DNA from: Psychrobacillus sp. INOP01
Lineage (GTDB): Bacteria > Bacillota > Bacilli > Bacillales_A > Planococcaceae
Length of the DNA: 64,000 bases
Reading direction: 5' to 3'
Assembly: GCF_018140925.1 (NCBI RefSeq)
Contig: NZ_CP073315.1
Span: 1,798,001-1,862,000, forward strand
Shown: piece after piece, positions 1,887-47,303 of the stretch
How positions within the stretch are numbered: position 1 is the stretch's first letter
How the letters are laid out: every line of letters starts with the position of its first letter
Position numbers and translations under genes: made by a program
The notes under the pieces: model-generated
What the model was told of the DNA's origin: nothing
The model's input: the letters and a program-made list of their open reading frames with translations, nothing else
Databases searched by the model: none

Positions 1887-3470
1887 CTACTTTTTATAAT
1901 AAGCCCGTGACACGAGTAGTCCAACCACTCCTAGAGCTATAAATAATGAAGCCTTAATAGCTACAGATACAAATGAAATATCGAACAATATGATTTTCGC
2001 TAACGTCACAAAAAGAATACCAACACCGACGTACTTACCTTGTGGCAACGAAAAACGACTTAATACCATAAATAGTATAGCCACGATAATCCATAATGAA
2101 CTAGTAATGACTCGCTCCATATTGCTTCCGGTATCTCCTGAAACTAAGACAGCAATCATATGCAAAAAGTATAAAATCATAACTGCAGCATATGGTACTC
2201 CGATATTTAAAATAGTTTTCTCTATAAAAATACTCGCTAGCAAATAAACCCCGTAAACTGTACCTACTATAAATACCGTCCAGTGTAACATTTCCCATGA
2301 TACCCAGTTCATAATCGAAATAGATAGCACATAGTAGACAGCTATGAAATAACTAATACACATAAGAATCATGTGTAACATATGCTTATATTTCTTATAT
2401 ACGAATAGGTATATAAAGCTTAATCCAATTATTCCTTCAAATAGTAAATTGTCTATTTGGAGCTGCATTATATTTAGCAAAGCAATGGATCCACCCGCAA
2501 TAAAAATAGGAGCACGTATCGAATCCTTTTGATATGCATAATAACAAATCCCATAGACGAGCGTAATAATTATCATTAAAACAGTTGCTTCATTATCCGT
2601 GAATAATACACGAATCCATAAAGCAGTTAATAGCATAATTGTAAATAGCGTATACGCTTGTTCCTTTAACATCTGCTTCGTCTTCAAAAGACTAACCAAT
2701 AACGCAAAATGTTGTACGAATATGGGAAGCATTGCTATCCATTTATAAGCATCAGGTACATTTGCAAAAATAAAGAAAACCAATATTGCTACCTGTAAGA
2801 AAATGACCGTAATATAATATAAAGCCTTGTAGGAATATTTTAGGGCAATCCATAGAAATACTGTAAAAAGAACCGTTTCGTAAAAAGAAAACAACGGAAT
2901 ATTTGGTGAAGTACTGTTTATCAAAAACGGGACAAATACCCCTCCTACTGTAGCAACAATCCCAATTCCTTGTGAGCGGTACTTATTGGTTAGAAATACT
3001 CCCAATGAAATCCAAACAACATTGAAGATAAAAGCTACTGTTGGTCCAGATATATTATACAGCTGATGCATTGCAAAAGTGGTCAACATTAGGATTGGAA
3101 TAGACCCACCAAGGAGCATATGCCCTAAATTCTTGCGACTTTTAATTTGCCAAATACCTAACGCGATTAATGCAAAGCCAACGACATAACCTATAATTAC
3201 TTTTACTGTTGGTTGTAAAAAACCGTAATCCGACACCGCTTTGAAACCCCAAATTACTCCTATTATAAATACGACAATAAATAAGGGAGGCAATATTTTC
3301 TGAAAGATTAGTATATCCCATTCAACAGGCTGTCTCACTTGTTGTTGATCCTGTATGATAGGTCGCTCGGGTTGAGAGATATTTGGTTTAGTATGTATTT
3401 GCTCTTCTAAAAATCGAACCCGTTCTTCTAATTGCTCTATTCTCTTTTCAAGAAGTTCACTCTTCTCCAT
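1887..3470 (-). CDS. DUF2339 polytopic membrane protein
   Basis: A 527-residue protein with a charged N-terminal coiled coil (residues about 3-28, rich in Glu, Lys and Leu), a Gln/Pro-rich hydrophilic linker to about residue 48, and then an almost unbroken series of roughly 14 hydrophobic segments to the C-terminus. This architecture and the segment IGIVATVGGVFVPFL match the DUF2339 family, whose function is not known. The cytosolic coiled coil may mediate oligomerisation (inference). The ribosome-binding site GAAGGTGAG precedes the ATG. It is followed closely by the DUF1801 gene. Confidence 0.8.
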   Translation of the reverse strand: MEKSELLEKRIEQLEERVRFLEEQIHTKPNISQPERPIIQDQQQVRQPVEWDILIFQKILPPLFIVVFIIGVIWGFKAVSDYGFLQPTVKVIIGYVVGFALIALGIWQIKSRKNLGHMLLGGSIPILMLTTFAMHQLYNISGPTVAFIFNVVWISLGVFLTNKYRSQGIGIVATVGGVFVPFLINSTSPNIPLFSFYETVLFTVFLWIALKYSYKALYYITVIFLQVAILVFFIFANVPDAYKWIAMLPIFVQHFALLVSLLKTKQMLKEQAYTLFTIMLLTALWIRVLFTDNEATVLMIIITLVYGICYYAYQKDSIRAPIFIAGGSIALLNIMQLQIDNLLFEGIIGLSFIYLFVYKKYKHMLHMILMCISYFIAVYYVLSISIMNWVSWEMLHWTVFIVGTVYGVYLLASIFIEKTILNIGVPYAAVMILYFLHMIAVLVSGDTGSNMERVITSSLWIIVAILFMVLSRFSLPQGKYVGVGILFVTLAKIILFDISFVSVAIKASLFIALGVVGLLVSRAYYKK

Positions 3471-3555
3471 TCAATCTCACCTTCTTCAATATGTTCTACT
3501 CATAATATTAGACAAATATTGAAAATATCCTTTAAAACTCATATAAATTGATCAT

Positions 3556-3601
3556 AAACAACAGGAGGATCTATCATCTAGATAGCCCCTCCTGTTGTTT
3601 A
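3556..3601 (-). terminator. hairpin after the GNAT gene
   Basis: Twelve-base arms AACAACAGGAGG and CCTCCTGTTGTT enclose an AT-rich loop just beyond the stop codon of the acetyltransferase gene; the following T-run is short. Confidence 0.6.
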
Positions 3602-4063
3602 AATCTTTAACTCTGTCTCTTTTTCATAAACCTTAATAGAGCCACCAAAGGGACCGTACGTAATTGTTGAATTCACCCAACCATAGTTTTCATAGTATTC
3701 TTCTAAATCACTAGATAAATATAGCTTTTCATACCCTAGTCGTGCAGTCACGTTCAACCCGTGCTCTAAAAGAATTTTACCAATTGACCTTCCCCTATAT
3801 GACGGTTTCACATATAAGCAGCCTAACCAAGGATATAAATCTTGTCTGCTATTAATGTCATTTCTAAGTAATGCATACGTACCAATAATTTCATTGTCCT
3901 CTATAGCAATATAAAATCTTGGTATAGCATCCTTTTCCATACTTGAATGTCTCATACAGTCTTTGTAAAAATCATAGTTCGTTTCATTTCCCCACTGCTC
4001 CCAAAATATTTTCACTGATTCCTCAAACAAATCAGATCGCTTTTGGATATTCAAAATTTCCAT
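3599..4063 (-). CDS. GNAT family N-acetyltransferase
   Basis: A 154-residue GCN5-related acetyltransferase. The acetyl-CoA binding motif A is clear as VKPSYRGRSIGKILLEHGL, with the preceding beta strand LGCLY. The substrate cannot be predicted. The open frame continues upstream to 4219 through the promoter of the divergent Nudix gene, but the ATG at 4063 has an AAAGGGG ribosome-binding site and gives the normal family length, so it is the start. The 84-base gap to the Nudix gene must hold both promoters. Confidence 0.85.
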   Translation of the reverse strand: MEILNIQKRSDLFEESVKIFWEQWGNETNYDFYKDCMRHSSMEKDAIPRFYIAIEDNEIIGTYALLRNDINSRQDLYPWLGCLYVKPSYRGRSIGKILLEHGLNVTARLGYEKLYLSSDLEEYYENYGWVNSTITYGPFGGSIKVYEKETELKI

Positions 4064-4147
4064 ATTAGCACCCCTTTTTATATCTTCTTTGTCCTCTTTC
4101 ACTATATAATAAAAGATACCTTTATTTCCATAGGATGGTGAGAAAAA

Positions 4148-4537
4148 ATGAGAGATCGTGGAGCAACTATCATTATTGAAAATGGCCAAGTAGCACTCAT
4201 CAAACGAACGAAACCTCATATGACGTATTACGTGTTTCCAGGTGGAGGATTAGAAAAAGGTGAGACTCCAGAACAAGCAGCGATTCGCGAAACATATGAA
4301 GAGATTGGCGTACATGTAAGAATCCAGAGGCCTTTTAAAATTCTTGAACAAAGTGGCACTCAACACTTTTTTCTAGCAGATATAATAGGTGGGAAATTTG
4401 GACCCGGAATCGGCGAAGAATATACTGATCCATCTTCCCAAAGAGGTAGCTATGAACCAATTTGGTTAAATATTAAAGATCTGTCATCACTGGATGTACG
4501 TCCTAAAGAAATTATCGAACTAATTACGAAGTATTAA
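4148..4537 (+). CDS. Nudix hydrolase
   Basis: A 129-residue Nudix protein of MutT size. The Nudix box occupies residues 33-55, with G33, E39, R47, E48, E51, E52 and G54 in the expected positions, so metal-dependent hydrolysis of a nucleoside diphosphate derivative is expected. The substrate is not evident. It is transcribed away from the GNAT gene. The AraC-type regulator follows after about 75 bases in the same direction; no terminator was seen between them, so read-through is possible. Confidence 0.9.
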   Translation: MRDRGATIIIENGQVALIKRTKPHMTYYVFPGGGLEKGETPEQAAIRETYEEIGVHVRIQRPFKILEQSGTQHFFLADIIGGKFGPGIGEEYTDPSSQRGSYEPIWLNIKDLSSLDVRPKEIIELITKY

Positions 4538-4612
4538 ACCGTCCAACGTTCGCACAAAATGACAGGATGACTTTCAGACTTTCTATTAAGATACATATAA
4601 GGAGTGAAGCCA

Positions 4613-5476
4613 GTGGGATGGGTAGAGTCGATTCAACAAGCAATAAGCTATATGGAGGATCATTTACTAGAGGATTTATCAATGGAACAAATTGCAAAGG
4701 AAGCTAATTCTTCTGTTTTTCATTTTCAGCGTACTTTTTCTATCCTAACGGATATGTCGCTCGGAGACTATATTCGAAGAAGACGACTAACTTTAGCTGC
4801 TCAAGAATTGCTGAATACAGACAATAAAGTAATCGATGTCTCCTACAAATACGGCTATGACACTCCTGAATCCTTCACAAAAGCATTCCGTAAGCAACAT
4901 GGCATAACGCCTAGTGAAGCGAGAAAAAATATTGGGAAAATAAATTCCTACAACCGCCTGATGATTCAGGTAAATTTAAAGGGGGCAGAACCGATGAAGT
5001 ATAAAATTGTAGAAAAAGAAAGCTTTCAAGCCGTCGGAGTGAAAAGAACGTATAACTGCAAAAATGGGGAAAACACACAAGGTATTCCTGTATTTTGGGA
5101 TGATGTACATGTAGATGGTACAAATGATTTGTTGTTGCAATTAAACAACGGAGGAATTGAAGGTATACTTGGTGTTTGCGTTGCAGATGAAGCATATCAA
5201 GAGAATAGCTTAATTGATTATTGGATTGCAACAGATCATGTAGGAGAAGTACCAGAAAACCTATCAACTATTACAATCCCTTCATCCAAGTGGGTTGTAT
5301 TCGAAGTACACGGCCCTATGCCAGATGCCATGCAGAATACATGGAAACAAATATATTCTGAGTGGTTTCCATCCAATCCGTATGAGCCTGCTGGGACACC
5401 AGAGCTAGAAGTGTATTCCGATGACGATCCTTCAAGCGCAAATTGTTATTCAGAAATTTGGATACCGATTAAATAA
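4613..5476 (+). CDS. AraC family regulator with GyrI-like effector domain
   Basis: A 287-residue regulator. Residues 1-105 hold the two AraC-type helix-turn-helix motifs, including MEQIAKEANSSVFHFQRTF and the C-terminal signature YGYDTPESFTKAFRKQHG. From about residue 125 to the end lies a GyrI-like (AraC effector-binding) domain that in relatives binds hydrophobic drugs or small ligands. The start is taken as GTG at 4613, eight bases after AAGGAG; a GTG at 4604 overlaps that ribosome-binding site and is unlikely. Targets are unknown; no adjacent efflux gene is present. Confidence 0.85.
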   Translation: MGWVESIQQAISYMEDHLLEDLSMEQIAKEANSSVFHFQRTFSILTDMSLGDYIRRRRLTLAAQELLNTDNKVIDVSYKYGYDTPESFTKAFRKQHGITPSEARKNIGKINSYNRLMIQVNLKGAEPMKYKIVEKESFQAVGVKRTYNCKNGENTQGIPVFWDDVHVDGTNDLLLQLNNGGIEGILGVCVADEAYQENSLIDYWIATDHVGEVPENLSTITIPSSKWVVFEVHGPMPDAMQNTWKQIYSEWFPSNPYEPAGTPELEVYSDDDPSSANCYSEIWIPIK

Positions 5477-5483
5477 CAACAAA

Positions 5484-5516
5484 GACCCAAGGAGCACTAG
5501 TGTCCCTTGGGTTTTC
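5484..5516 (+). terminator. terminator after the AraC-type gene
   Basis: ACCCAAGG pairs with CCTTGGGT across a short loop and is followed by TTTTC, about 8 bases after the stop codon. Confidence 0.8.
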
Positions 5517-5836
5517 ATATTTAACCTGGATATTATTTCAAATTAAGCTACCTCGAAACTCCAAACTTATCCTAAACTCAACCAAACTTTTTACTAAAGC
5601 CAAACTATCTACAGACATTAACGCTTGTCCTCCTTCAAGTAACTTTGCAGTCCCTTGTTAGGATAGAGTCGAAATTGAAAAGCTGCGCGAAACAGCTTCG
5701 GCTAACGCCAACCGAAATTCATCTCCCTCCTACTCATGCTGATGGGAGTCTTCTTTCAAGAATGATAAATTTCGTTATAACACGGACAATAATTTTCACA
5801 CATGAAAATCCGTCACTTTTATGCTAATGTCAGTAT
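5517..5836. other. gene-free stretch with a structured, coding-like relic
   Basis: No gene can be supported. Between about 5655 and 5770 the composition changes: small palindromic segments (TCGG...CCGA, CTCCC...GGGAG) are packed together, and the stretch reads without stops in more than one frame, as happens in relics of mobile elements. The ATG of the VanZ-like gene follows with no good ribosome-binding site. Confidence 0.35.
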
Positions 5837-6310
5837 ATGAAAAAACTTATACCTCTTTTACTATTACTTGTTGTTGTATTTTTAGCATCAGGGCAATCAG
5901 CTGAACAGCAATCTATGCAGGATATCTTAAAGGCATGGCTCCCCAACAAACCACTGGAGTATTTTCTAAGTCTTTTCCAAATTCCATACTGGGGTATTCT
6001 CGTTTCGGTGGATGAGCGTGGATACTATGCTTTTGTAGAGTTTTTAATACGAAAAGGAACACATTTCATTTATTTTGGAATAATTGCTTTAGCTATATAT
6101 ATTGCATTACCAAGATTTAAGTATCGTAAGGTTACAGTGGTTGTGATCACTTTTCTTCTTGCTATTACTGATGAATTCCGACAATCGTTTACAAGTGGTC
6201 GCACGGCTTCTTTCCAAGATGTCATGTTAGATACATCTGGGGCAATTGCCGCGCTATTATTAATGTCATTTATTCAATGGTTTAAATCCACAAAAAACGT
6301 TGACCGATAG
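5837..6310 (+). CDS. VanZ-like family membrane protein
   Basis: A 157-residue protein with an N-terminal hydrophobic segment and three further membrane segments, carrying the VanZ-like signature KGTHFIYFGIIAL, TDEFRQSFTSGRTASFQD. In glycopeptide-resistance clusters VanZ confers low-level teicoplanin resistance, but most chromosomal relatives are of unknown role and none of the van genes is nearby. The ATG at 5837 is the first start after an in-frame stop, yet lacks a convincing ribosome-binding site. It ends in a strong terminator that overlaps its stop codon. Confidence 0.8.
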   Translation: MKKLIPLLLLLVVVFLASGQSAEQQSMQDILKAWLPNKPLEYFLSLFQIPYWGILVSVDERGYYAFVEFLIRKGTHFIYFGIIALAIYIALPRFKYRKVTVVVITFLLAITDEFRQSFTSGRTASFQDVMLDTSGAIAALLLMSFIQWFKSTKNVDR

Positions 6311-6330
6311 AAAGGGTCAACGTTTTATCT
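6294..6330 (+). terminator. terminator of the VanZ-like gene
   Basis: AACGTTGACC pairs with GGGTCAACGTT around a short loop and is followed by TTTAT; the left arm includes the last codons of the gene. Confidence 0.85.
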
Positions 6331-6474
6331 TTGAGCTACGTTGTCATTAAAATAATACGTATACTACATGAATGTTCACTTGCCGCACGATGTGTATCTG
6401 TTCTTCAATCACTCCTTCAAATGTTTGAAGACCACTCCTTATTGCCGTGTAGCTAGCGCAAGGGTGAGGTTATG

Positions 6475-6777
6475 TTAATCTACTTGAGGTGCGGGATATT
6501 TCAATGCATTTTTCTTCATTTTTTGCTGAGCAGCATCCTTTAAATCAATTCCAAGAACATCAGCAAATTGTAAAAGATAAATGAATACATCCGCTGCTTC
6601 GTCAGCAATTGCCTGTTTGTCTTTTTTTATCGCATCCTCCGCACTAACCCATTGGAAATGCTCTAATAGTTCACTTGCTTCTAATGATACTGAAATAGCA
6701 AGGCTACGAGCATCAGGATTTCCTCCCCAACCTCGTTCATACCGGAACTTTCTTATTTCTTCTGTTAGTTCTTTCAT
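6475..6777 (-). CDS. MazG-like nucleotide pyrophosphohydrolase
   Basis: A 100-residue all-alpha NTP pyrophosphatase of the short MazG/dCTPase (XTP3TPA-like) type. The metal-binding residues are visible as E33-x-x-E36 and E60-x-x-D63. Relatives hydrolyse (d)NTPs, often modified or non-canonical ones, to the monophosphate and pyrophosphate; the preferred base is unknown. The AAGGAG ribosome-binding site lies seven bases before the ATG. The gene follows a 5'-truncated gene remnant in the same orientation. Confidence 0.85.
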   Translation of the reverse strand: MKELTEEIRKFRYERGWGGNPDARSLAISVSLEASELLEHFQWVSAEDAIKKDKQAIADEAADVFIYLLQFADVLGIDLKDAAQQKMKKNALKYPAPQVD

Positions 6778-6787
6778 ATAATTCTCC

Positions 6788-6943
6788 TTACTTTGCTATA
6801 AATGCATAAGTGTTCATCGATGTGACTTTGTTTTGTTTTCTTGCAGCTTCTAATAGATGCATTTCAGATTGTATTAAAGCTTTAAATTTAGCTGGTAAAT
6901 AGTCAGCTGATTCAATTGAATCTTTTTCCCACTTACTTTCATT
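6788..6943 (-). pseudogene. remnant: C-terminal end of a lost gene
   Basis: A 51-codon open stretch with no start codon ends at a TAA eight bases before the ribosome-binding site of the MazG-like gene. Its composition looks coding, with segments such as SADYLPAKFKALIQSEMHLL and the end TSMNTYAFIAK. That ending resembles the C-terminus of SAM-dependent methyltransferases, but identity is not established. The upstream part is missing, replaced by the end of the GNAT gene. Confidence 0.4.
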
Positions 6944-7445
6944 TTAAGATTAACGACATATGCTGTTCTTCGAAATAAGCATCCCCAACCTTTAATGCCA
7001 TCTCTTCTGTCCCAAATACTTTAAAGCCTAATTGAAGATACAGATTCTTTGCTGCCTCATTACTTGAAACTACGGATAGGTTTATCTTTTCAATTTCCCT
7101 GCTTTCTTTTGCTTGTGCAATCGCCAATTCCATTAAGGCTTTACCTATACCTTTTCCTCTGCCAATTGGACTTACATACATAGCGAAAATATTAGCACGA
7201 TGCTTCATCTTCAAGCTACTCTCCTGTAAAAGAGTGACCATTCCGATTAGTTTATACTGATCGAACGCTCCAAACGTATAATTTCCTTTTATTTTTAAGT
7301 TATCCTTTACTCGTTCAATTGGGTTGTCCCGTTGAATTGCTTCTTCATAGCTCGTGCCAAATGCTTCTGGGCTACTTTGCAATGCTTCTAATCTTAACTC
7401 CCAATATGCACTCGCATCTTCAGCTACTAATTGTCTATATTCCAT
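6939..7445 (-). CDS. GNAT family N-acetyltransferase
   Basis: A 168-residue acetyltransferase with motif A as VSPIGRGKGIGKALMELAI and the typical C-terminal SSNEAAKNLYLQLGFKVFG, where the family places the acceptor pocket. The substrate is unknown. It starts two bases after the stop of the aminoglycoside nucleotidyltransferase-like gene and is probably co-transcribed with it, so a role in modifying a related small molecule is conceivable but unproven. Confidence 0.85.
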   Translation of the reverse strand: MEYRQLVAEDASAYWELRLEALQSSPEAFGTSYEEAIQRDNPIERVKDNLKIKGNYTFGAFDQYKLIGMVTLLQESSLKMKHRANIFAMYVSPIGRGKGIGKALMELAIAQAKESREIEKINLSVVSSNEAAKNLYLQLGFKVFGTEEMALKVGDAYFEEQHMSLILK

Positions 7446-7447
7446 CC

Positions 7448-8245
7448 TTATACCTCCGAAAAATATCTTTCCTCACATAATTTATGCGCATATAAAACAA
7501 AGTCTCGACAAGCTTCTGCACGAAGAATTTCTGTTTCAAACAGTGATTGTGAATGCCCAGACGTACGGATTCTCCATCCTTCTTTCAATAATAAATGCCA
7601 ACGTTCAGGCAAGGTCTTCAAGCCAGTTTCCAGCGCTCTTTTCTTGGAAATAATTTGGCCATTCTCTAAAGAGTAAAGAATCCTACAAATAGTTGTAGTG
7701 GTGGATTCCACCATTTCATCCGAAACTGAAACCCTTACTTCTTTCGCTTTGCTGTACCAATATTCATTTATATTATATTTTAATGTATTGAAGACATCTT
7801 CCCATTTAGTTGCAATATCTAACTCTATAATTGGTGTTCCTTGTAGTACAATTCCGTACTCCTTTAGTACCCACCAGGTTACATGATTAATATCCCAATG
7901 ACCAACCTCTAGATTCCCATCCGAGCAGTAAGGATAAGGAGCTAGAGTATCATTTGTCTTCCCTATTTCGTCTTTTAATATATACATTCCATCCAAACTT
8001 GCTCCGCGGTTTTCATTAGTTAATTGAATATGAATATTCTTTAGAATTTCTGTTTCTTGTTTGTTTGCTGTTCGCTTCAATAAAACAATAAAGTCAATAT
8101 CGCTCTTTTCCTGTTCAAAAGCCCCTAATGCAGTAGATCCATAAATATAGACCCCTTCAATTAAATCCTTTGAGAAATATGTATTCAATAAATGCAAAAA
8201 TGCTTGCATCAATTGATGTACCTCCTGTGGTAATGATTGCTTCAT
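7448..8245 (-). CDS. aminoglycoside nucleotidyltransferase-like protein (ANT/AadA type)
   Basis: A 265-residue protein with the nucleotidyltransferase signature YGS at residues 35-37 and D49-I50-D51 for metal and nucleotide binding, followed by the DUF4111 C-terminal helical domain typical of ANT(3'')/ANT(9) enzymes. Such enzymes adenylylate streptomycin or spectinomycin; whether this chromosomal copy confers resistance cannot be read from sequence. The length is normal and all key residues are present. It is the first gene of a two-gene unit with a GNAT enzyme and carries no sign of a mobile cassette. Confidence 0.8.
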   Translation of the reverse strand: MKQSLPQEVHQLMQAFLHLLNTYFSKDLIEGVYIYGSTALGAFEQEKSDIDFIVLLKRTANKQETEILKNIHIQLTNENRGASLDGMYILKDEIGKTNDTLAPYPYCSDGNLEVGHWDINHVTWWVLKEYGIVLQGTPIIELDIATKWEDVFNTLKYNINEYWYSKAKEVRVSVSDEMVESTTTTICRILYSLENGQIISKKRALETGLKTLPERWHLLLKEGWRIRTSGHSQSLFETEILRAEACRDFVLYAHKLCEERYFSEV

Positions 8246-38155: not shown

Positions 38156-38187
38156 AAAAAACTTCTTATCCTTTGATAAGAAGCTTT
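38156..38187 (-). terminator. terminator after the CorA-like gene
   Basis: GCTTCTTATC pairs with GATAAGAAG on the minus strand, followed by TTTTTT; it reaches into the stop codon. Confidence 0.85.
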
Positions 38188-39631
38188 AGAATCTATCTCT
38201 TTTCCATTTTCTGTATCTATCATAAATTCTTTTTCCCCCGGTGTAACCTATTAAGGCGACAGCTAAGCCAATTCCTGATAACGATGTAATAAGTGCTATC
38301 CATTCAAAAAAGGAATAACCCGGCACCTTGGCCCAATCTGTTTTCCCCTTCCAATCCTCAATAACTAGGTTCATCCCATAAATACCGGAAACGACTGTAA
38401 AAATAGTTAACATAAATAATAACGAATTATGCCGTTTGTCCGATTGATTGTCTTGAGCACGGTATAGATCATCTAAGGTTTGTTTCACTTCATTGAAAAG
38501 ATTCTGTAAACGGAATACTTCTCGTAACTTCTGCGTTATCTCTTTCCCTTCCGTTCTAGTAGAAACCTCCTCAAAATAATAACGTGAATCGAATTTAGAT
38601 ATGAGTTCGATTAACTCCTCCACATATTTTTTGTCCTTTGCCCAACTAACTTCACTATGCTCAAAAGAAACTTTCAACAGCATAATTTTATAATAGTAAT
38701 GAAGCATTAAATTATAATAATTCACACTCATAAATTGAGAAATCTTTTGCTCTAATTGCTCTTTTTTCTTAACAGAAAGAGTAGCTTGAGTATGCTCGGA
38801 AGTAATTGTATATGTATGCGGTGCCCAGCGGTCATGTATACGTTCGTGGACATAGCGTTTCACATAATCTGAATTGGAGCTAGAGATAAACTCATTTCCA
38901 TTTATATCCTTTCCATCTAAGTGCGCCAAACGAAACAACTGATCTTCTGAAATTTCGGATTTATCGTTCGCGATTAAAAATACAGAACTATGCATTCTCT
39001 CATCTTCAAAATAAGGGAGACTACCATAATAACCTGCTAACTTTTCATCGTGGATGATAAATGGTTTTAAAGGCTGACATATATAATCAAAAACAAGCTT
39101 GTTTGTAGTTTGGAACACTTTGTTTTTGTGGTGAATCTTAGAACCTTTATCGAAAGCAAGCTTAGGCTCTAGTACACGAAAATGAGCGATATGGTCTAAT
39201 ATATTCGTCAACGTCTCCTGATCTTGATCCATAGCAGCCCGTATGGTGATTATACCAATACCAAAAGGACATAAAATAATATCCACACTGTTAATGATAA
39301 TAATGGTTTTGTTGTCATTCACTTCATATATAAAAGATTCTTCTATTACTTTTGAATAACGCAAAAAGCCCCTATTATCTGTCTTAGCAGGGAATAATTT
39401 ATCTTCAATGAATGGTAAAAAGAACTGATCCAATTCCTCATGTACAATTCTTATATTATCTCCATAATATTTGTCTTGTAGTTCTTGTTTGCCTAAAGTG
39501 AAAAAGGTGAAATGATGCTTTTCGAGCTGCTCCATTAACTTTTGTCTATCTTTCTCTCGAAAAGAGAATGGAAATAGATAAGTCATGTATGCATCTGTAA
39601 TATCCAAAGGTCGAAGCTCTAAACTATCCAT
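38186..39631 (-). CDS. divergent CorA-like membrane protein
   Basis: A 481-residue protein. A long soluble N-terminal region (to about residue 400), with a helical, charged last third, is followed by two hydrophobic segments. The first ends in YGMNLV, the hallmark GMN motif of CorA Mg2+/Co2+ channels; the second is FFEWIALITSLSGIGLAVAL, and a basic tail follows. The layout matches CorA, but the N-terminal domain is longer and unlike the standard one. It may be a cation channel or sensor. The ATG at 39631 has better spacing from AGTAGG than the GTG at 39640. Confidence 0.7.
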   Translation of the reverse strand: MDSLELRPLDITDAYMTYLFPFSFREKDRQKLMEQLEKHHFTFFTLGKQELQDKYYGDNIRIVHEELDQFFLPFIEDKLFPAKTDNRGFLRYSKVIEESFIYEVNDNKTIIIINSVDIILCPFGIGIITIRAAMDQDQETLTNILDHIAHFRVLEPKLAFDKGSKIHHKNKVFQTTNKLVFDYICQPLKPFIIHDEKLAGYYGSLPYFEDERMHSSVFLIANDKSEISEDQLFRLAHLDGKDINGNEFISSSNSDYVKRYVHERIHDRWAPHTYTITSEHTQATLSVKKKEQLEQKISQFMSVNYYNLMLHYYYKIMLLKVSFEHSEVSWAKDKKYVEELIELISKFDSRYYFEEVSTRTEGKEITQKLREVFRLQNLFNEVKQTLDDLYRAQDNQSDKRHNSLLFMLTIFTVVSGIYGMNLVIEDWKGKTDWAKVPGYSFFEWIALITSLSGIGLAVALIGYTGGKRIYDRYRKWKRDRF

Positions 39632-39690
39632 TTCATTCACCTACTTTTTGTTATTATTCTTCTTTACCTTACTTGTTCTGTTCATAAACC

Positions 39691-39996: not shown

Positions 39997-40470
39997 TTAT
40001 TTTATTTTTTTATCAGTGTCTTTTCTTGTCTGATTAGAAATAGAATCGGTATCTATTTCCTCCGCAAATTCAGTTAGTAGGTTCGTCCGCTGGTAATATC
40101 CGACTTTTTCAACGGGGTTAGATTTCCTCGATTCGAAGATATTTGAGTGCATATATTGATGTAAAAAGAGTTCTCCTACCATTAATAACAATGCAGTAAT
40201 AAAAGACGCTGCCCCTAGAGCTAAAGGCTGCTCATATATATAGGACCCCAAAAAGAAAATAACCAAATAAGCAATGACAAAATCACTTATAGCAGCCCAC
40301 ACATTACCTATTTTAGGTAATATAAAGACGTCTCCTACATATCCTACTACCGAAAGAACCACACTAGTAATGAGGACGTCTGGTATAGATACATCATAAA
40401 AAATACTTAAAACAACCCATAACACAGCAGTTATCATGATAAACTTCATAAAAAAAGCTTTCATGTACAC
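39997..40470 (-). CDS. DUF2512 (YndM-like) membrane protein
   Basis: A 157-residue protein with four hydrophobic segments in its first 105 residues and a charged cytosolic tail of about 50 residues. The block YDVSIPDVLITSVVLSVVGY and the following GDVFILPKIGN are characteristic of the YndM/DUF2512 family of Bacillales, function unknown. The GTG at 40470 is about ten bases after AGGGG; an ATG two codons later is the alternative. Confidence 0.8.
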   Translation of the reverse strand: MYMKAFFMKFIMITAVLWVVLSIFYDVSIPDVLITSVVLSVVGYVGDVFILPKIGNVWAAISDFVIAYLVIFFLGSYIYEQPLALGAASFITALLLMVGELFLHQYMHSNIFESRKSNPVEKVGYYQRTNLLTEFAEEIDTDSISNQTRKDTDKKIK

Positions 40471-40496
40471 GTATTTCCATCCCCTTTTTTAAGTAT

Positions 40497-41456
40497 TTAT
40501 CTTTTTTTAGTTGATGTATGTGCTTTAGATTGTTGCTTTGCAAACCATTCATTTATTTCACGATAACTCATTCCTGCATTTGCATTTAATCTTTTAACTT
40601 CCTCTATATCGGTTCCTGCTACTGTAAATTTCTTATTATTACTTATAGTAAACCCATCCTTTCTATTACTGAATATAGGGCGATTTTTTTTGTACCATTG
40701 ATAAAACAGTATAGAAATTAGCCCTACTTCCACAGTATCCCCACCGTAGTACATAATCATGCTACCTAATTCCGCTTGATCTTTTGGTACATCACTTGGA
40801 GGATTCGCATAAATATATTTAGCTAAGACGGAATGACCTGCTAAAGCAAAAAGAAATACGACTGTCCGGTATACATAGCTTTTTCTTAAGGGTGTCAAAT
40901 CAACGTAAATGATGGAAATCGTAAATACATATCCAGCCAGAAAAATGTGTACATGAATAATTACATATAGGAGCGTATTTTCGTGCATCATAAGAAACAA
41001 ATCAGTTGTGTAAAGCACCCACAAGCCACCAATATTTAAGAAGGATGCAATAATTGGATGCTGTACAAAATGGAGAGGTTGACTACGTAGAATTGCAGTT
41101 AGATTCCTTGCTGTAGGTACATTAATCGTTCGTAGTAGAAGCGTTATGGGGGCTCCTAACGCCATCAAAAGTGGCGCTAACATACCAAGTAATAGGTGGC
41201 CAATCATATGGGCAGAAAAATCTGTGTGCCCCAGATCTGCAATGGGACCAATTACAGCTAGAGTTGCACATAATACACCAAAGCTCCATGCAACAACTCG
41301 GTAGACTGGCCATGTTTTTTTCTTTCGATTGGACAGACATACTGCCACAATATAAAAAACGAATAACAATGTGAATGGAAATGCCAATAAAATTTGAAGA
41401 TCAGCTACTGGATACTGTTCGTGAGTATGCATCTGAAAATCAGTTCCTCCATTCAT
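40497..41456 (-). CDS. ctaG: cytochrome c oxidase assembly factor CtaG
   Basis: A 320-residue polytopic protein of the Bacillus-type CtaG family (distinct from the Cox11-type CtaG), needed for assembling active caa3 oxidase, probably in copper centre formation. Seven hydrophobic segments are visible, with conserved His in DFSAHMIGHLLLGMLAPLL. The ATG at 41456 overlaps the TGA of the preceding DUF2243 gene (ATGA), which argues for translational coupling; an open frame continues further upstream but is inside that gene. A hydrophilic C-terminal tail of about 70 residues is unusual in length. Confidence 0.88.
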   Translation of the reverse strand: MNGGTDFQMHTHEQYPVADLQILLAFPFTLLFVFYIVAVCLSNRKKKTWPVYRVVAWSFGVLCATLAVIGPIADLGHTDFSAHMIGHLLLGMLAPLLMALGAPITLLLRTINVPTARNLTAILRSQPLHFVQHPIIASFLNIGGLWVLYTTDLFLMMHENTLLYVIIHVHIFLAGYVFTISIIYVDLTPLRKSYVYRTVVFLFALAGHSVLAKYIYANPPSDVPKDQAELGSMIMYYGGDTVEVGLISILFYQWYKKNRPIFSNRKDGFTISNNKKFTVAGTDIEEVKRLNANAGMSYREINEWFAKQQSKAHTSTKKR

Positions 41457-41932
41457 GACTTCGTCCGATAGATAAGAATTACTCCAATCAGAATCATTAA
41501 AGCAGCCAAAATATTCCACACTAAATCATACGGAAGAATGTCAACATCGTAACGGATTTGATGTAAAGCCATCCATTTATGTTGTACGATTCCGTCATAT
41601 AGTTGAAAAACACCTGCACCTAAAAGGATTCCACCAATCCATCTCTTCAACCAAAATGCATGACGTCTATGCAGATCTGCTAGTAGAAAAGATGCCCCTA
41701 TCGTAGCCATAAAGCTAAAAGCATGAAAAAGCCCATCCGACACTAGACCAATATCCGTAGTAGATTTATCATAGAAATGATGCCAATGAAGAAGCTGATG
41801 AAAAACTACCTCATCTATAAACGCCACAATCCCAAGTCCAAATAAAATACCTGTCCACATATTCTGCTTGGCATATGCTCCTTTATGTGGGTTTTGTTTA
41901 TGATTGGAAGAGGTACTTAGGGAAGTAGTCAT
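41453..41932 (-). CDS. DUF2243 membrane protein
   Basis: A 159-residue protein with four hydrophobic segments and a His-rich periplasmic-side loop HQLLHWHHFYDKS, typical of DUF2243. The family frequently accompanies CtaG-type genes and may handle copper or a haem-copper oxidase intermediate; this is inference from the histidines and linkage. The ATG at 41932 follows AAAGGATG. Its stop codon overlaps the ctaG start, so the two form an operon. Confidence 0.82.
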   Translation of the reverse strand: MTTSLSTSSNHKQNPHKGAYAKQNMWTGILFGLGIVAFIDEVVFHQLLHWHHFYDKSTTDIGLVSDGLFHAFSFMATIGASFLLADLHRRHAFWLKRWIGGILLGAGVFQLYDGIVQHKWMALHQIRYDVDILPYDLVWNILAALMILIGVILIYRTKS

Positions 41933-42084
41933 TTTTAACATCCTTTTTTAGATTAGCTTTTCCTTTTCTATAAGAATTTAAACTTTTACTCCCTTGATTA
42001 TTTAGGGGATACTATTGGGCTAAGTAAGTTTCTCGTGATAGCATTAGTTCCATTCAAGAGCACTTGATATTTCTCATCAACAGC

Positions 42085-42132: not shown

Positions 42133-43179
42133 TTACTTTAAGCTTCCAACATATTTCAAGTTATCTACCGATTCCTCATCTGCCTTGCCATCTAAAATAG
42201 ATTCGACATCTTGCAATGTTTGGGACAGTGAAACTTCTAGTCCTGCTTGACCAGTAAAGGACTCTGCAACATAAAAGGGTTGTGTGAAATAGGCCTCCAA
42301 TCGTTCACCACGCTCATATATCTCCAATTCATTACTCCTTATTTTATCCAATCCATGAACAACAACTAATGACCGAAGCTCTTTATAACGTCTAAGTAAT
42401 TTCTGCGCTCTCTGCCTTAAGTTAAAATGACGTTGATCCACGTCCACTCCTTCCACAAGAGAAGAAGTGGAAATAATAGGTTGAATAGCAGGAAAAAGAT
42501 GACGCGCTGCAAGGTCAGCATCCAATTGCCATACTGTTTCTAACGGTCCAAAAGGAATATCCTCATCGACAACTTCTCCAGAAAGGTCCAAAAGAATCGT
42601 TGTAACATTTTTTATTCCCTCTGTGACCATTTTTTCTTGCAGCTCTAATAACTGACCTGAAATCACATAACTCCTATCGGTTATCAACAGGATATCCCCA
42701 GAAATTTCTGATAATTTCAAAATTGTCTCTTCAATGGATTTAGTCAAATAATTTGCTAACCCAGTAATACCCTCTGTTTCAAGTTCATCTTGCTGTCCTT
42801 GAGGCAATAAAAATATCGTCGTATACTCACTGTCCTGAAACCTGTGCATAAGTTCTCCAAGAATAACTAGCTGCCCCATTCCAGGCCGTGCAACTAAACC
42901 AGTTGTCCCCTCTTTCACTAATGGCGCAAAAAAGTCTAATGCTTTAATTTTTGTTTCAATCATATTCAACTTCTCACCCCGTATGATTAATTCATCTAAC
43001 GTACAATTCGCTAAAGAAGCTAGACCTACAAGGGTCCTAACCTCCGCCTTCCCTAAATCGATCTTCCCAGTGCATAAATTTGAAACAGTGGCTGGTCTAA
43101 TTCCTATAGATTTAGCTGCTGACGTCAAATTGGGTACCTTCCTTCTTAATAAAGCAACATTCAATCGTATATCTTCCAC
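42133..43179 (-). CDS. helix-turn-helix protein fused to a degenerate F1-ATPase beta-like domain
   Basis: A 348-residue two-domain protein. Residues 8-62 form an XRE-like helix-turn-helix (AAKSIGIRPATVSNLCTGK). Residues 74-348 follow the ATP synthase beta subunit: IETKIKALDFFAP corresponds to its LETGIKVVDLLAP, FPAIQPIISTSS to YPAVDPLASTSR, RRYKELRSLVVVHGLD to QRYKELQDIIAILGMD, and FYVAESFTGQ to FHVAEQFTGQ. The P-loop GGAGVGKT reads ARPGMGQL (residues 97-104), so the catalytic Lys and Thr are lost, and the catalytic-loop region is about 65 residues shorter. It is probably a nucleotide-sensing or dead-ATPase regulator. GGAGGGG precedes the GTG start. Confidence 0.82.
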   Translation of the reverse strand: MEDIRLNVALLRRKVPNLTSAAKSIGIRPATVSNLCTGKIDLGKAEVRTLVGLASLANCTLDELIIRGEKLNMIETKIKALDFFAPLVKEGTTGLVARPGMGQLVILGELMHRFQDSEYTTIFLLPQGQQDELETEGITGLANYLTKSIEETILKLSEISGDILLITDRSYVISGQLLELQEKMVTEGIKNVTTILLDLSGEVVDEDIPFGPLETVWQLDADLAARHLFPAIQPIISTSSLVEGVDVDQRHFNLRQRAQKLLRRYKELRSLVVVHGLDKIRSNELEIYERGERLEAYFTQPFYVAESFTGQAGLEVSLSQTLQDVESILDGKADEESVDNLKYVGSLK

Positions 43180-43194
43180 ACTACCCCTCCTTAG

Positions 43195-43253
43195 TTACTC
43201 TTAATAGTAAAATAAATTACTTTAAAAAACAATTTATTTTATTTTAAGAGTAA
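43195..43253 (-). promoter_or_regulatory. long inverted repeat spanning the regulator's promoter
   Basis: Arms of 24 and 23 bases (43195-43218 and 43231-43253), ends TTACTCTTAA and TTAAGAGTAA, are separated by 12 bases. On the minus strand TTGTTT and TACTAT, 17 bases apart, lie inside. Autoregulation by the helix-turn-helix protein is the simplest reading. Confidence 0.7.
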
Positions 43254-43275
43254 TTATTTTTACTCCGAAAAAAAC

Positions 43276-45805: not shown

Positions 45806-46381
45806 TTATACAATTTGATCGATAATACCATAACTTTTTGCTTCTTCTGCTGTCATGAAATAATCACGGTCGGAGTCTTTGGCTATTTTTTCAATGGTTT
45901 GACCTGTTCGTTCTGAAAAAATACGATTAATCCTTTCTTTCATCAGAAGAATACGTCTGGCACTGATTTCAATGTCACTCGCCTGACCTTGTGCTCCTCC
46001 AAGTGGTTGGTGAATCATAATTTCACTATTCGGTAAGGCAAAACGTTTTCCTTTTGCACCTGCAACTAATATGGTTGCACCAAATGAAGCAGCCATTCCC
46101 GTACAAATCGTACGGACATCTGGTTTAATAATTTGCATCGTATCATAAATCGCAAACCCAGAGCTTACTGAGCCTCCTGGACTATTGATATATAAAGAAA
46201 TATCCTTTTCGGGATCATCTGCTTCTAAAAATAATAGCTGCGCCACGATATTATTAGCAACGACGTCATTGATTTCTGACCCAAGGAAAATAATACGATC
46301 CTTCAACAATCTTGAGTAAATATCATATGAACGCTCGCCATGTCCCGTTTGCTCTACAACATATGGAATTAGGTTAGACAT
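45806..46381 (-). CDS. clpP: ClpP protease paralogue
   Basis: A 191-residue ClpP with a complete catalytic triad: S99 (GMAASFGAT), H124 (IMIHQPLGG) and D173. It would form the barrel chamber that degrades proteins unfolded by ClpX, ClpC or ClpE. The region around the Ser reads [11 protein letters not shown] instead of the ASMGAFLL usual in the main Bacillus ClpP, so this is probably a second paralogue. It starts 14 bases after the ECF sigma factor gene with the site AAAGGGG, forming an operon. The long upstream open frame is sigma-gene overlap. Confidence 0.92.
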
Positions 46382-46395
46382 TTTCTTTCCCCTTT

Positions 46396-47211
46396 CTATG
46401 CTATAGCTAAAAGCTCCTCTTCTTTCCAAAAAGTAATCAGAGATAGTACTCTGGCTACTTCTGTTTGATAGAACGGAACAATTAGCACTTCGCCATTTTT
46501 CTTGAGGAACGAAATTAGCACGTAAGAAGAGTTGCCCTGCACGTAGGAATGGACGATAGAGTGACTTTGGGAAACAGGACCTCTTTTTCCGCTTCGCATA
46601 CACGGTTGTTGTTGATCATTCTGGTAAACGCGAATAACCTCATACGGATTGCCACTCCCCCATGCCTGTAAATAAGACATGGTTGTTTCGTCTTCAACGT
46701 CATATTGATAGGATTCATTGCATCTATGCCTTGCATTTTTCCTAGCCCTGTTTAGAGCCGCTTTGATAGAACCTTCACTAACCGAAAGTAAGCTTGCGGT
46801 CTCTTTCGATGAGTAGCCAAAACCCATGACAAGTAAAACCACTACCCTTTGCTTTGCAGACAGTTCATATAGTAATGCAAAGATTTTTGGAAATAGCTCT
46901 TCCGAAGGTCCCTCTTGATAGTTATAATTGGACATATCTTGATGCAAATTTTCTTCTATTTTTCCTTTACGATGTTTGTCGATCCAGGCATTAGAGGCAA
47001 TCCGAAACAAATAGGACTTTGTCATTTGCTTAGGCATTTTCATCCAACTTATATATGCTTTTTCTAATGTCTCCTGCATCAAATCTTCGCCATCCCATTT
47101 TGTGCGTGTTAGGGATAAACAATACTTCCTTAAACTGTGCATAAAAGGCTTAATAGCCAGCTCAAATTCCTCTTTCAATTCAAACGGAGTTTTTTCAACA
47201 AGCGGCCGCAT
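46396..47211 (-). CDS. ECF-type RNA polymerase sigma factor with C-terminal extension
   Basis: A 271-residue sigma factor. The sigma-2 region includes [17 protein letters not shown] and the sigma-4 region [20 protein letters not shown] with the helix-turn-helix [20 protein letters not shown]. About 90 additional residues follow, without a recognised domain but with strand-like pattern ([20 protein letters not shown]). No anti-sigma gene is adjacent; the extension may be self-regulatory, as known for some ECF groups. AAAGGAGGGG fixes the ATG at 47211. It is co-transcribed with the clpP paralogue. Confidence 0.85.
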
Positions 47212-47303
47212 GTTTACCCCTCCTTTAAATTTGTCTTTCACTTATATAAACGGAAAAATAGACTGAAAAGGTACGGTCAAAAAAAATATTTTAAACTTAC
47301 CAC

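Follow-up and report, generated by a model that had tools for sequence, protein, structure and literature searches.

A helix-turn-helix protein carrying a degenerate F1-ATPase beta subunit, and its conserved candidate operator

The minus strand of the window (the whole stretch of 64,000 nucleotides of Psychrobacillus sp. INOP01 DNA analyzed) encodes at 42133..43179 a 348-aa protein made up of an N-terminal helix-turn-helix (HTH) followed by nucleotide-binding and C-terminal domains derived from the beta subunit of F1-ATPase. The protein, hereafter the regulator, probably is a ligand-gated one-component autorepressor, its F1-beta half serving as effector domain. The HTH domains of a dimer, or of a larger oligomer, would occupy three in-phase 16-bp dyads placed about two helical turns apart, covering the -35 and -10 elements of the regulator's own promoter and, in some strains, likewise the promoter that drives a single hydrolase gene or operon, coding either for an M3 oligopeptidase or for a formamidase-like FmdA_AmdA protein, alone or together with an alpha/beta hydrolase. 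A ligand lodged in the F1-beta-derived half would alter the shape or the assembly of the protein, and the freed DNA would allow more regulator and hydrolase to be made. The scheme supposes repression rather than activation, oligomerization, and binding of a ligand, for which two candidates are considered below.

Architecture of the regulator and residues lost and kept

The regulator gene resides at C1:1840136-1841179 in its own genome, outside the atp operon (AtpA- and AtpD-like genes at C1:2897064-2900114). The similarity to AtpD is seen in the sequence, at about 23-30% identity to F1-ATPase beta, and in the matching predicted fold of the nucleotide-binding and C-terminal domains; the score against the AtpD equivalog model TIGR01039 (113.5 bits) is below the curated cut-off (462.85). 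The alignment begins at about residue 130 of the strain's own AtpD, and the N-terminal beta-barrel is absent, its place being taken by the HTH. Profile, alignment and predicted fold thus bear out the original prediction of an HTH regulator built on a catalytically dead, barrel-less F1 beta, which had proposed profile and structure comparison to AtpD as checks; F1-beta homology was found by both. Taken as a whole, its interpretation is supported in part, namely for the anatomy of the protein and, strongly by conservation, for an inverted repeat as candidate DNA site.

With a threshold of E <= 1e-3, one protein search retained 798 of its 8000 scored candidates and another 884 of its 6845, though the unlisted matches of both may include true AtpD. 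The matches listed (120 per search, 236 different proteins) feature 57-100% identity to the query used and at least 93% coverage, and carry source names such as 'F-type H+-transporting ATPase subunit beta' or 'hypothetical protein'. Residues were counted in 87 relatives picked from these 236 proteins. One relative, the 516-aa protein P0141 of Paenibacillus tarimensis, has an added domain (PF09350, source name DnaJ family).

The AlphaFold model has the HTH helices at residues 8-14, 18-24, 29-37, 47-56 and 61-64. Scores against HTH families are modest, the query's own match falls under the curated Pfam cut-off, and no clear sequence relative of the HTH was found in the PDB. Residues 28-38, around the recognition helix, reach the family maximum of mean pairwise identity (0.95), blocks outside the HTH ranging from 0.36 to 0.75; the most conserved stretch surrounds RPATVSNLCTG. 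A DNA-contact surface that is nearly invariant suggests a fixed DNA target.

Table 1. Features of the regulator gene and of its upstream region (positions in the window)
Feature	Position	Strand	Remarks
Cro/C1-type HTH, residues 1-68	42976..43179	-	Pfam HTH_26 (PF13443) in 72/87 relatives, E <= 0.01
F1-beta-derived domains without beta-barrel, residues 69-348 and stop	42133..42975	-	homology and predicted fold
Degenerate Walker A ARPGMGQL, residues 97-104	42868..42891	-	Lys replaced by Gln in 86/87
Walker-B Asp equivalent, D168	42676..42678	-	present in 86/87
Putative adenine-pocket segment F229-P230-A231	42487..42495	-	first position aromatic 84/87, P 87/87, A 87/87
Putative adenine-pocket segment F302-F308	42256..42276	-	302: F76/L10/M1; 308: F52/Y25/W1 and 9 others (n=87)
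Ribosome-binding site AGGAGGGG	43184..43191	-	read from sequence
Candidate operator array	43194..43266	-	three dyads and outer half-site, conserved upstream of regulator genes
Operator dyad TTACTATTAAGAGTAA	43195-43210	-	
Operator dyad TTGTTTTTTAAAGTAA	43217-43232	-	
Operator dyad TTACTCTTAAAATAAA	43238-43253	-	degenerate
Outer half-site GTAA	43260-43263	-	
Sigma-A-like promoter within array	43204..43232	-	-35 TTGTTT 43227-43232, 17-bp spacer, -10 TACTAT 43204-43209

The predicted replacement of the P-loop Lys and Thr holds across the 87 relatives: Lys is found in P0222 only, and the following residue is never Thr (0/87). The AtpD segments of the catalytic Glu and of DELSEED are not kept, and conservation reaches its minimum (mean pairwise identity 0.36) over residues 114-192, which make up the shortened catalytic-loop region. 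F229-P230-A231 correspond to Y345-P346-A347 of bovine beta, and F302-F308 to the segment from F418 to F424; Y345, P346, A347, F418, A421 and F424 belong to the bovine adenine pocket. In the 87 relatives, an aromatic residue stands at the Y345 equivalent 84 times and at that of F424 78 times; the equivalents of P346 and A347 are Pro and Ala in all 87, that of F418 is Phe in 76, and that of A421 is Ala in 82. By these comparisons, residues needed for ATP hydrolysis are gone from the F1-beta half, whereas an adenine-type pocket appears to be retained.

Such a pocket fits an autorepressor whose ligand is an adenine nucleotide. The dead beta would bind ADP, ATP or AMP without hydrolyzing it, and DNA binding would switch with the energy charge. 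This sensor of the energy state is a tentative possibility. It agrees with the pocket, whose positions are conserved or aromatic in 76 to 87 of the 87 relatives, with the retained Walker-B Asp, and with a P-loop in which Gly 102 persists in 87/87 while Lys is changed to Gln. It accords poorly with the lack of an operator at the strain's own atp operon, operators being placed before the regulator and single hydrolase genes, and presence in 56 of 261 genomes is odd for a core energy sensor. The beta fold, kept down to the C-terminal domain, might also let the protein pair with free F1 alpha subunits and report on stoichiometry or assembly. Such a role is very improbable, as no operator was found at the own atp operon and the segment at the place of the DELSEED motif does not resemble it.

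The operator array and its genomic targets

Regions upstream of the regulator were compared at 51 loci (37 distinct over 148 bases). A phased array is found immediately 5' of the start codon in nearly all of them, with GTAA to TTAC spaced by 10 bp (60 times), TTAC to GTAA by 12 bp (42 times), and TTGC to GTAA by 12 bp (29 times). Read as TTRC-N8-GTAA, the array consists of three 16-bp dyads about 22 bp apart plus the outer half-site. In the alignment of 32 operators, made without L021, L022, L046, L056 and identical copies, TTG of the -35 element, G.AA of the middle GTAA, TTAC-N2-T and the final AGTAA are invariant (32/32), the outer dyad being more variable than the rest. The array is recognizable but divergent in L021, and reduced to the two proximal dyads in L046. 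L022 and L056 have no array directly before the regulator, because the latter is there the downstream gene of an operon starting with the operator. The array recurs in other families, degenerate in some (L162-L173), and is kept in position and phase 5' of the start codon across genera and families. Since the dyads overlie the -35 and -10 elements, binding there should block transcription. Conservation lends strong support to the inverted repeat at 43195-43253, singled out by the original prediction, as candidate DNA site of the regulator.

An exact pattern drawn from regulator promoters was run on the 261 genomes of the strain's own GTDB family. It matched 64 genomes, 15 of the 205 devoid of the regulator and 49 of the 56 that carry it, the latter figure being partly so by construction. 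Matches fell at the regulator promoter in 45 of the 49, at the promoter of an M3 operon in G074 and G078, and only elsewhere in G142 and G207; the operator hence covers the own promoter in 45/56 genomes by exact pattern, and in more by model. Seven regulator genomes (G016, G049, G073, G170, G173, G178, G179) were not matched by the exact pattern. In the strain's own genome, a looser pattern, allowed up to one mismatch, hit twice, once at the regulator promoter and once immediately 5' of a gene for an M3-family oligopeptidase; a second pattern hit three times, one of them within a parC-like coding region. Allowing two mismatches gave 14 sites against 40 for the reversed-pattern control, and these sites are therefore noise. 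Neither pattern, nor the model scan, revealed an operator at the own atp operon, and control of that operon was rejected. The extra pattern sites in G125 (C78), in G142 (C44), in the parC-like coding region of G000, and a similar site in G138, look like chance.

A sequence-only model (R1) derived from the final 42 bp of the operators before regulator genes matched 61 of 67 regulator genomes, leaving out G005, G016, G049, G073, G170 and G594; three of these six have a whole regulator gene, the site being degenerate or missed (G005, G049, G170 or G594). At E <= 0.01 all R1 places are promoters of regulator, M3 or FmdA genes, except for weak and partial matches in G129 (C12) and G177 (C2). The FmdA operator of G207, found by pattern, was missed by R1 at E 0.01, and stricter filters lose weak sites, so weak targets may be missing. 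In most regulator genomes the sole target seen is the regulator itself. The hydrolases are thus optional, and may not reveal the ligand.

Linked hydrolases, neighbouring genes and distribution

The M3-family oligopeptidase gene (TIGR02289) preceded by the operator resides at C1:1601849-1603555 in the strain's own genome. Six of the 261 genomes have close orthologues (53-100% identity); each of these six also belongs to the 56 that carry the regulator, and the operator lies 5' of every orthologue (6/6; five by script, the sixth having a broken frame). It was found before none of 24 generic M3 paralogues (30 M3 loci listed were compared, from 194 genomes with a match). The order is operator-M3-regulator in one operon in G074 and G078, with 23 and 20 bp between M3 and regulator. 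A different M3 gene lies 346 bp (L012) and 323 bp (L181) behind the regulator; no dyad pair precedes it at either locus, and this second link, which may be due to chance, was discarded.

FmdA_AmdA genes (acetamidase/formamidase, PF03069; assigned by Pfam in G207 and L022, by similarity in G567 and G341) are linked to the regulator in four instances. The order is operator-FmdA-abhydrolase-regulator in G567 and operator-FmdA-regulator in Paenibacillus albiflavus (L022); the regulator overlaps FmdA in G341, and resides elsewhere in the genome in G207, where operator-FmdA-abhydrolase is found. Identity of the G567 FmdA is 80% to its G207 counterpart and 76% to the G341 one, against 68% and 55% for the corresponding regulators; across families, the enzyme sequence is thus no less conserved than the regulator. 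No operator was found before generic FmdA paralogues (0/29; 30 listed loci compared, 33 genomes matched). Among the 261 genomes only G207, itself a carrier of the regulator, has a close (80%) orthologue, and 32 others have a 46-51% paralogue. Co-occurrence of FmdA with the regulator was rejected, 28 of these 32 genomes lacking the regulator. PADLOC, which detects defence systems, gave no match for regulator, M3, FmdA or abhydrolase.

Conserved neighbours are shared mainly within a genus (24 loci); across genera, only the hydrolases recur with the operator. Genes for a DUF2243 membrane protein, a CtaG-type cytochrome oxidase assembly factor and a DUF2512 protein follow the regulator at 39997-41941 of the window, in an order common to several Psychrobacillus loci. 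Elsewhere in the window, a 484-aa ORF with no Pfam match (38186-39640) is kept in six loci including the window, and a ClpP ORF at 45806-47241 has a long N-terminal extension overlapping a sigma-70-like gene; its true start is probably further in than the ORF start. In five Psychrobacillus-type loci (L005, L006, L008, L009, L011; ~2400-7900), though not in the window, genes for small exported-looking proteins (c19-c21) cluster upstream of the regulator. In L138 the gene after the regulator (4033-4617) resembles aminoglycoside 2''-adenylyltransferase (PF10706, compared with Pfam at this locus), and similar genes occur in L133-L136, L178 and L179 (g17 genomes). L173 (9835-11043) and L176 (5625-6812), which belong to different families, have near the regulator transporter genes that look similar by eye.

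The presence of the regulator is patchy among Bacilli. At E <= 1e-40 it was found in 56 of the 261 genomes of the own family, three times as a partial gene (G016, G073, G078), in 19 of 398 genomes evenly drawn from the class, 11 of them outside the own family, and in two of 39 genomes of one further family, both of them already counted in the class draw. In a 38-row tree two g17 genomes, G174 and G184, fall within the g12/g1 clade beside a g12 genome (support 98/92 and 100/99) and apart from the six other g17 rows, a placement which indicates lateral transfer. Carriage as phage or plasmid cargo was rejected. IMG/VR yielded no confirmed relative from 47 pattern matches, and the 19 matches in phage records are all at most 35% identical and of the AtpD kind; the plasmid search gave 87 records, and one of the 20 listed is a true relative, with 50% identity and carried by a Paenibacillus replicon of 897 kb, the other 19 being at most 28% identical.

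In G073 (L142:3540-3840) unrelated DNA stands in place of the HTH-coding part and the operator, and what is left of the frame begins at the P-loop; one of the two copies in G515 has a stop. These few broken copies would suit a decaying gene, but the full-length relatives, 48-92% identical, spread over several families and endowed with conserved operators, refute both decay and the assembly chimera which the original prediction had contemplated, and the GC3 of the regulator (0.315) is like that of five neighbours (0.279-0.355). Either origin has a negligible probability.

Candidate ligands and comparison with known systems

The autorepressor might alternatively respond to a natural product directed against F1. 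The beta-like half would act as decoy and sponge, binding the compound and freeing the promoter, and the hydrolase, where present, would degrade it. This reading fits the target genes better than an adenine nucleotide does, though we consider it rather doubtful. The only widespread target is the regulator itself, as in TipA, the optional targets are peptide and amide hydrolases (peptidase, amidase), and the spread is patchy with lateral transfer; many F1 inhibitors are made by bacteria and fungi (PMC9615146). Aurovertin contacts argue against it: 4 of 16 mapped positions are family-specific invariants, a non-significant figure (p 0.09), and the position of Arg412 is Ala in 80/87 relatives. Retention of the aurovertin pocket as such is thus not supported. 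Adenine-nucleotide and F1-compound ligands are compatible with each other. A bolder form, which we regard as unlikely, has an F1 decoy for F1-directed toxins shutting its own promoter as a ring- or chain-like oligomer on three or four in-phase dyads; toxin capture would lead to more sponge and, in strains that have acquired one, to a peptidase or amidase destroying the toxin.

The regulator resembles AtpD (TIGR01039) in the fold of the nucleotide-binding and C-terminal domains, the adenine-pocket positions and the Walker-B Asp, and differs in the missing beta-barrel and Walker-A Lys and Thr, in the added HTH, and in its location outside the atp operon. It shares with Cro/C1-type (XRE) repressors (PF13443) the N-terminal HTH and the dyad operators over its own promoter, as predicted here, but its effector half is a rotary-ATPase subunit. 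One-component regulators reusing an enzyme fold as sensor are known; in ROK repressors a sugar-kinase fold, with sugar ligands, works behind an HTH in the same manner, whereas here the fold is that of a rotary ATPase. TipA is described (PMC7762955) as a minimal autoregulated drug-resistance system. The regulator would work like TipA/AlbA, with an HTH plus effector domain, its own promoter as predicted target, and a proposed sponge function; TipA/AlbA, in contrast, have a MerR-type HTH, an unrelated effector domain and known drugs, and neither the query nor any of the 87 relatives has a Pfam match to a MerR family. Neither an HTH-beta fusion nor a rotary-ATPase subunit used as sensor was found described in the literature searched, which included few subscription papers. 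The protein is therefore placed with the one-component regulators that reuse an enzyme fold, new in its rotary-ATPase origin.

The autorepressor role would put part of the ATP-synthase motor to a new use. As the family is large, the operator sharply defined and the sites few, a simple reporter would serve to look for the ligand. A nucleotide ligand would make the regulator a new energy sensor; an F1-directed compound would make it a resistance regulator of a new class, and a tool for finding ATP-synthase inhibitors.
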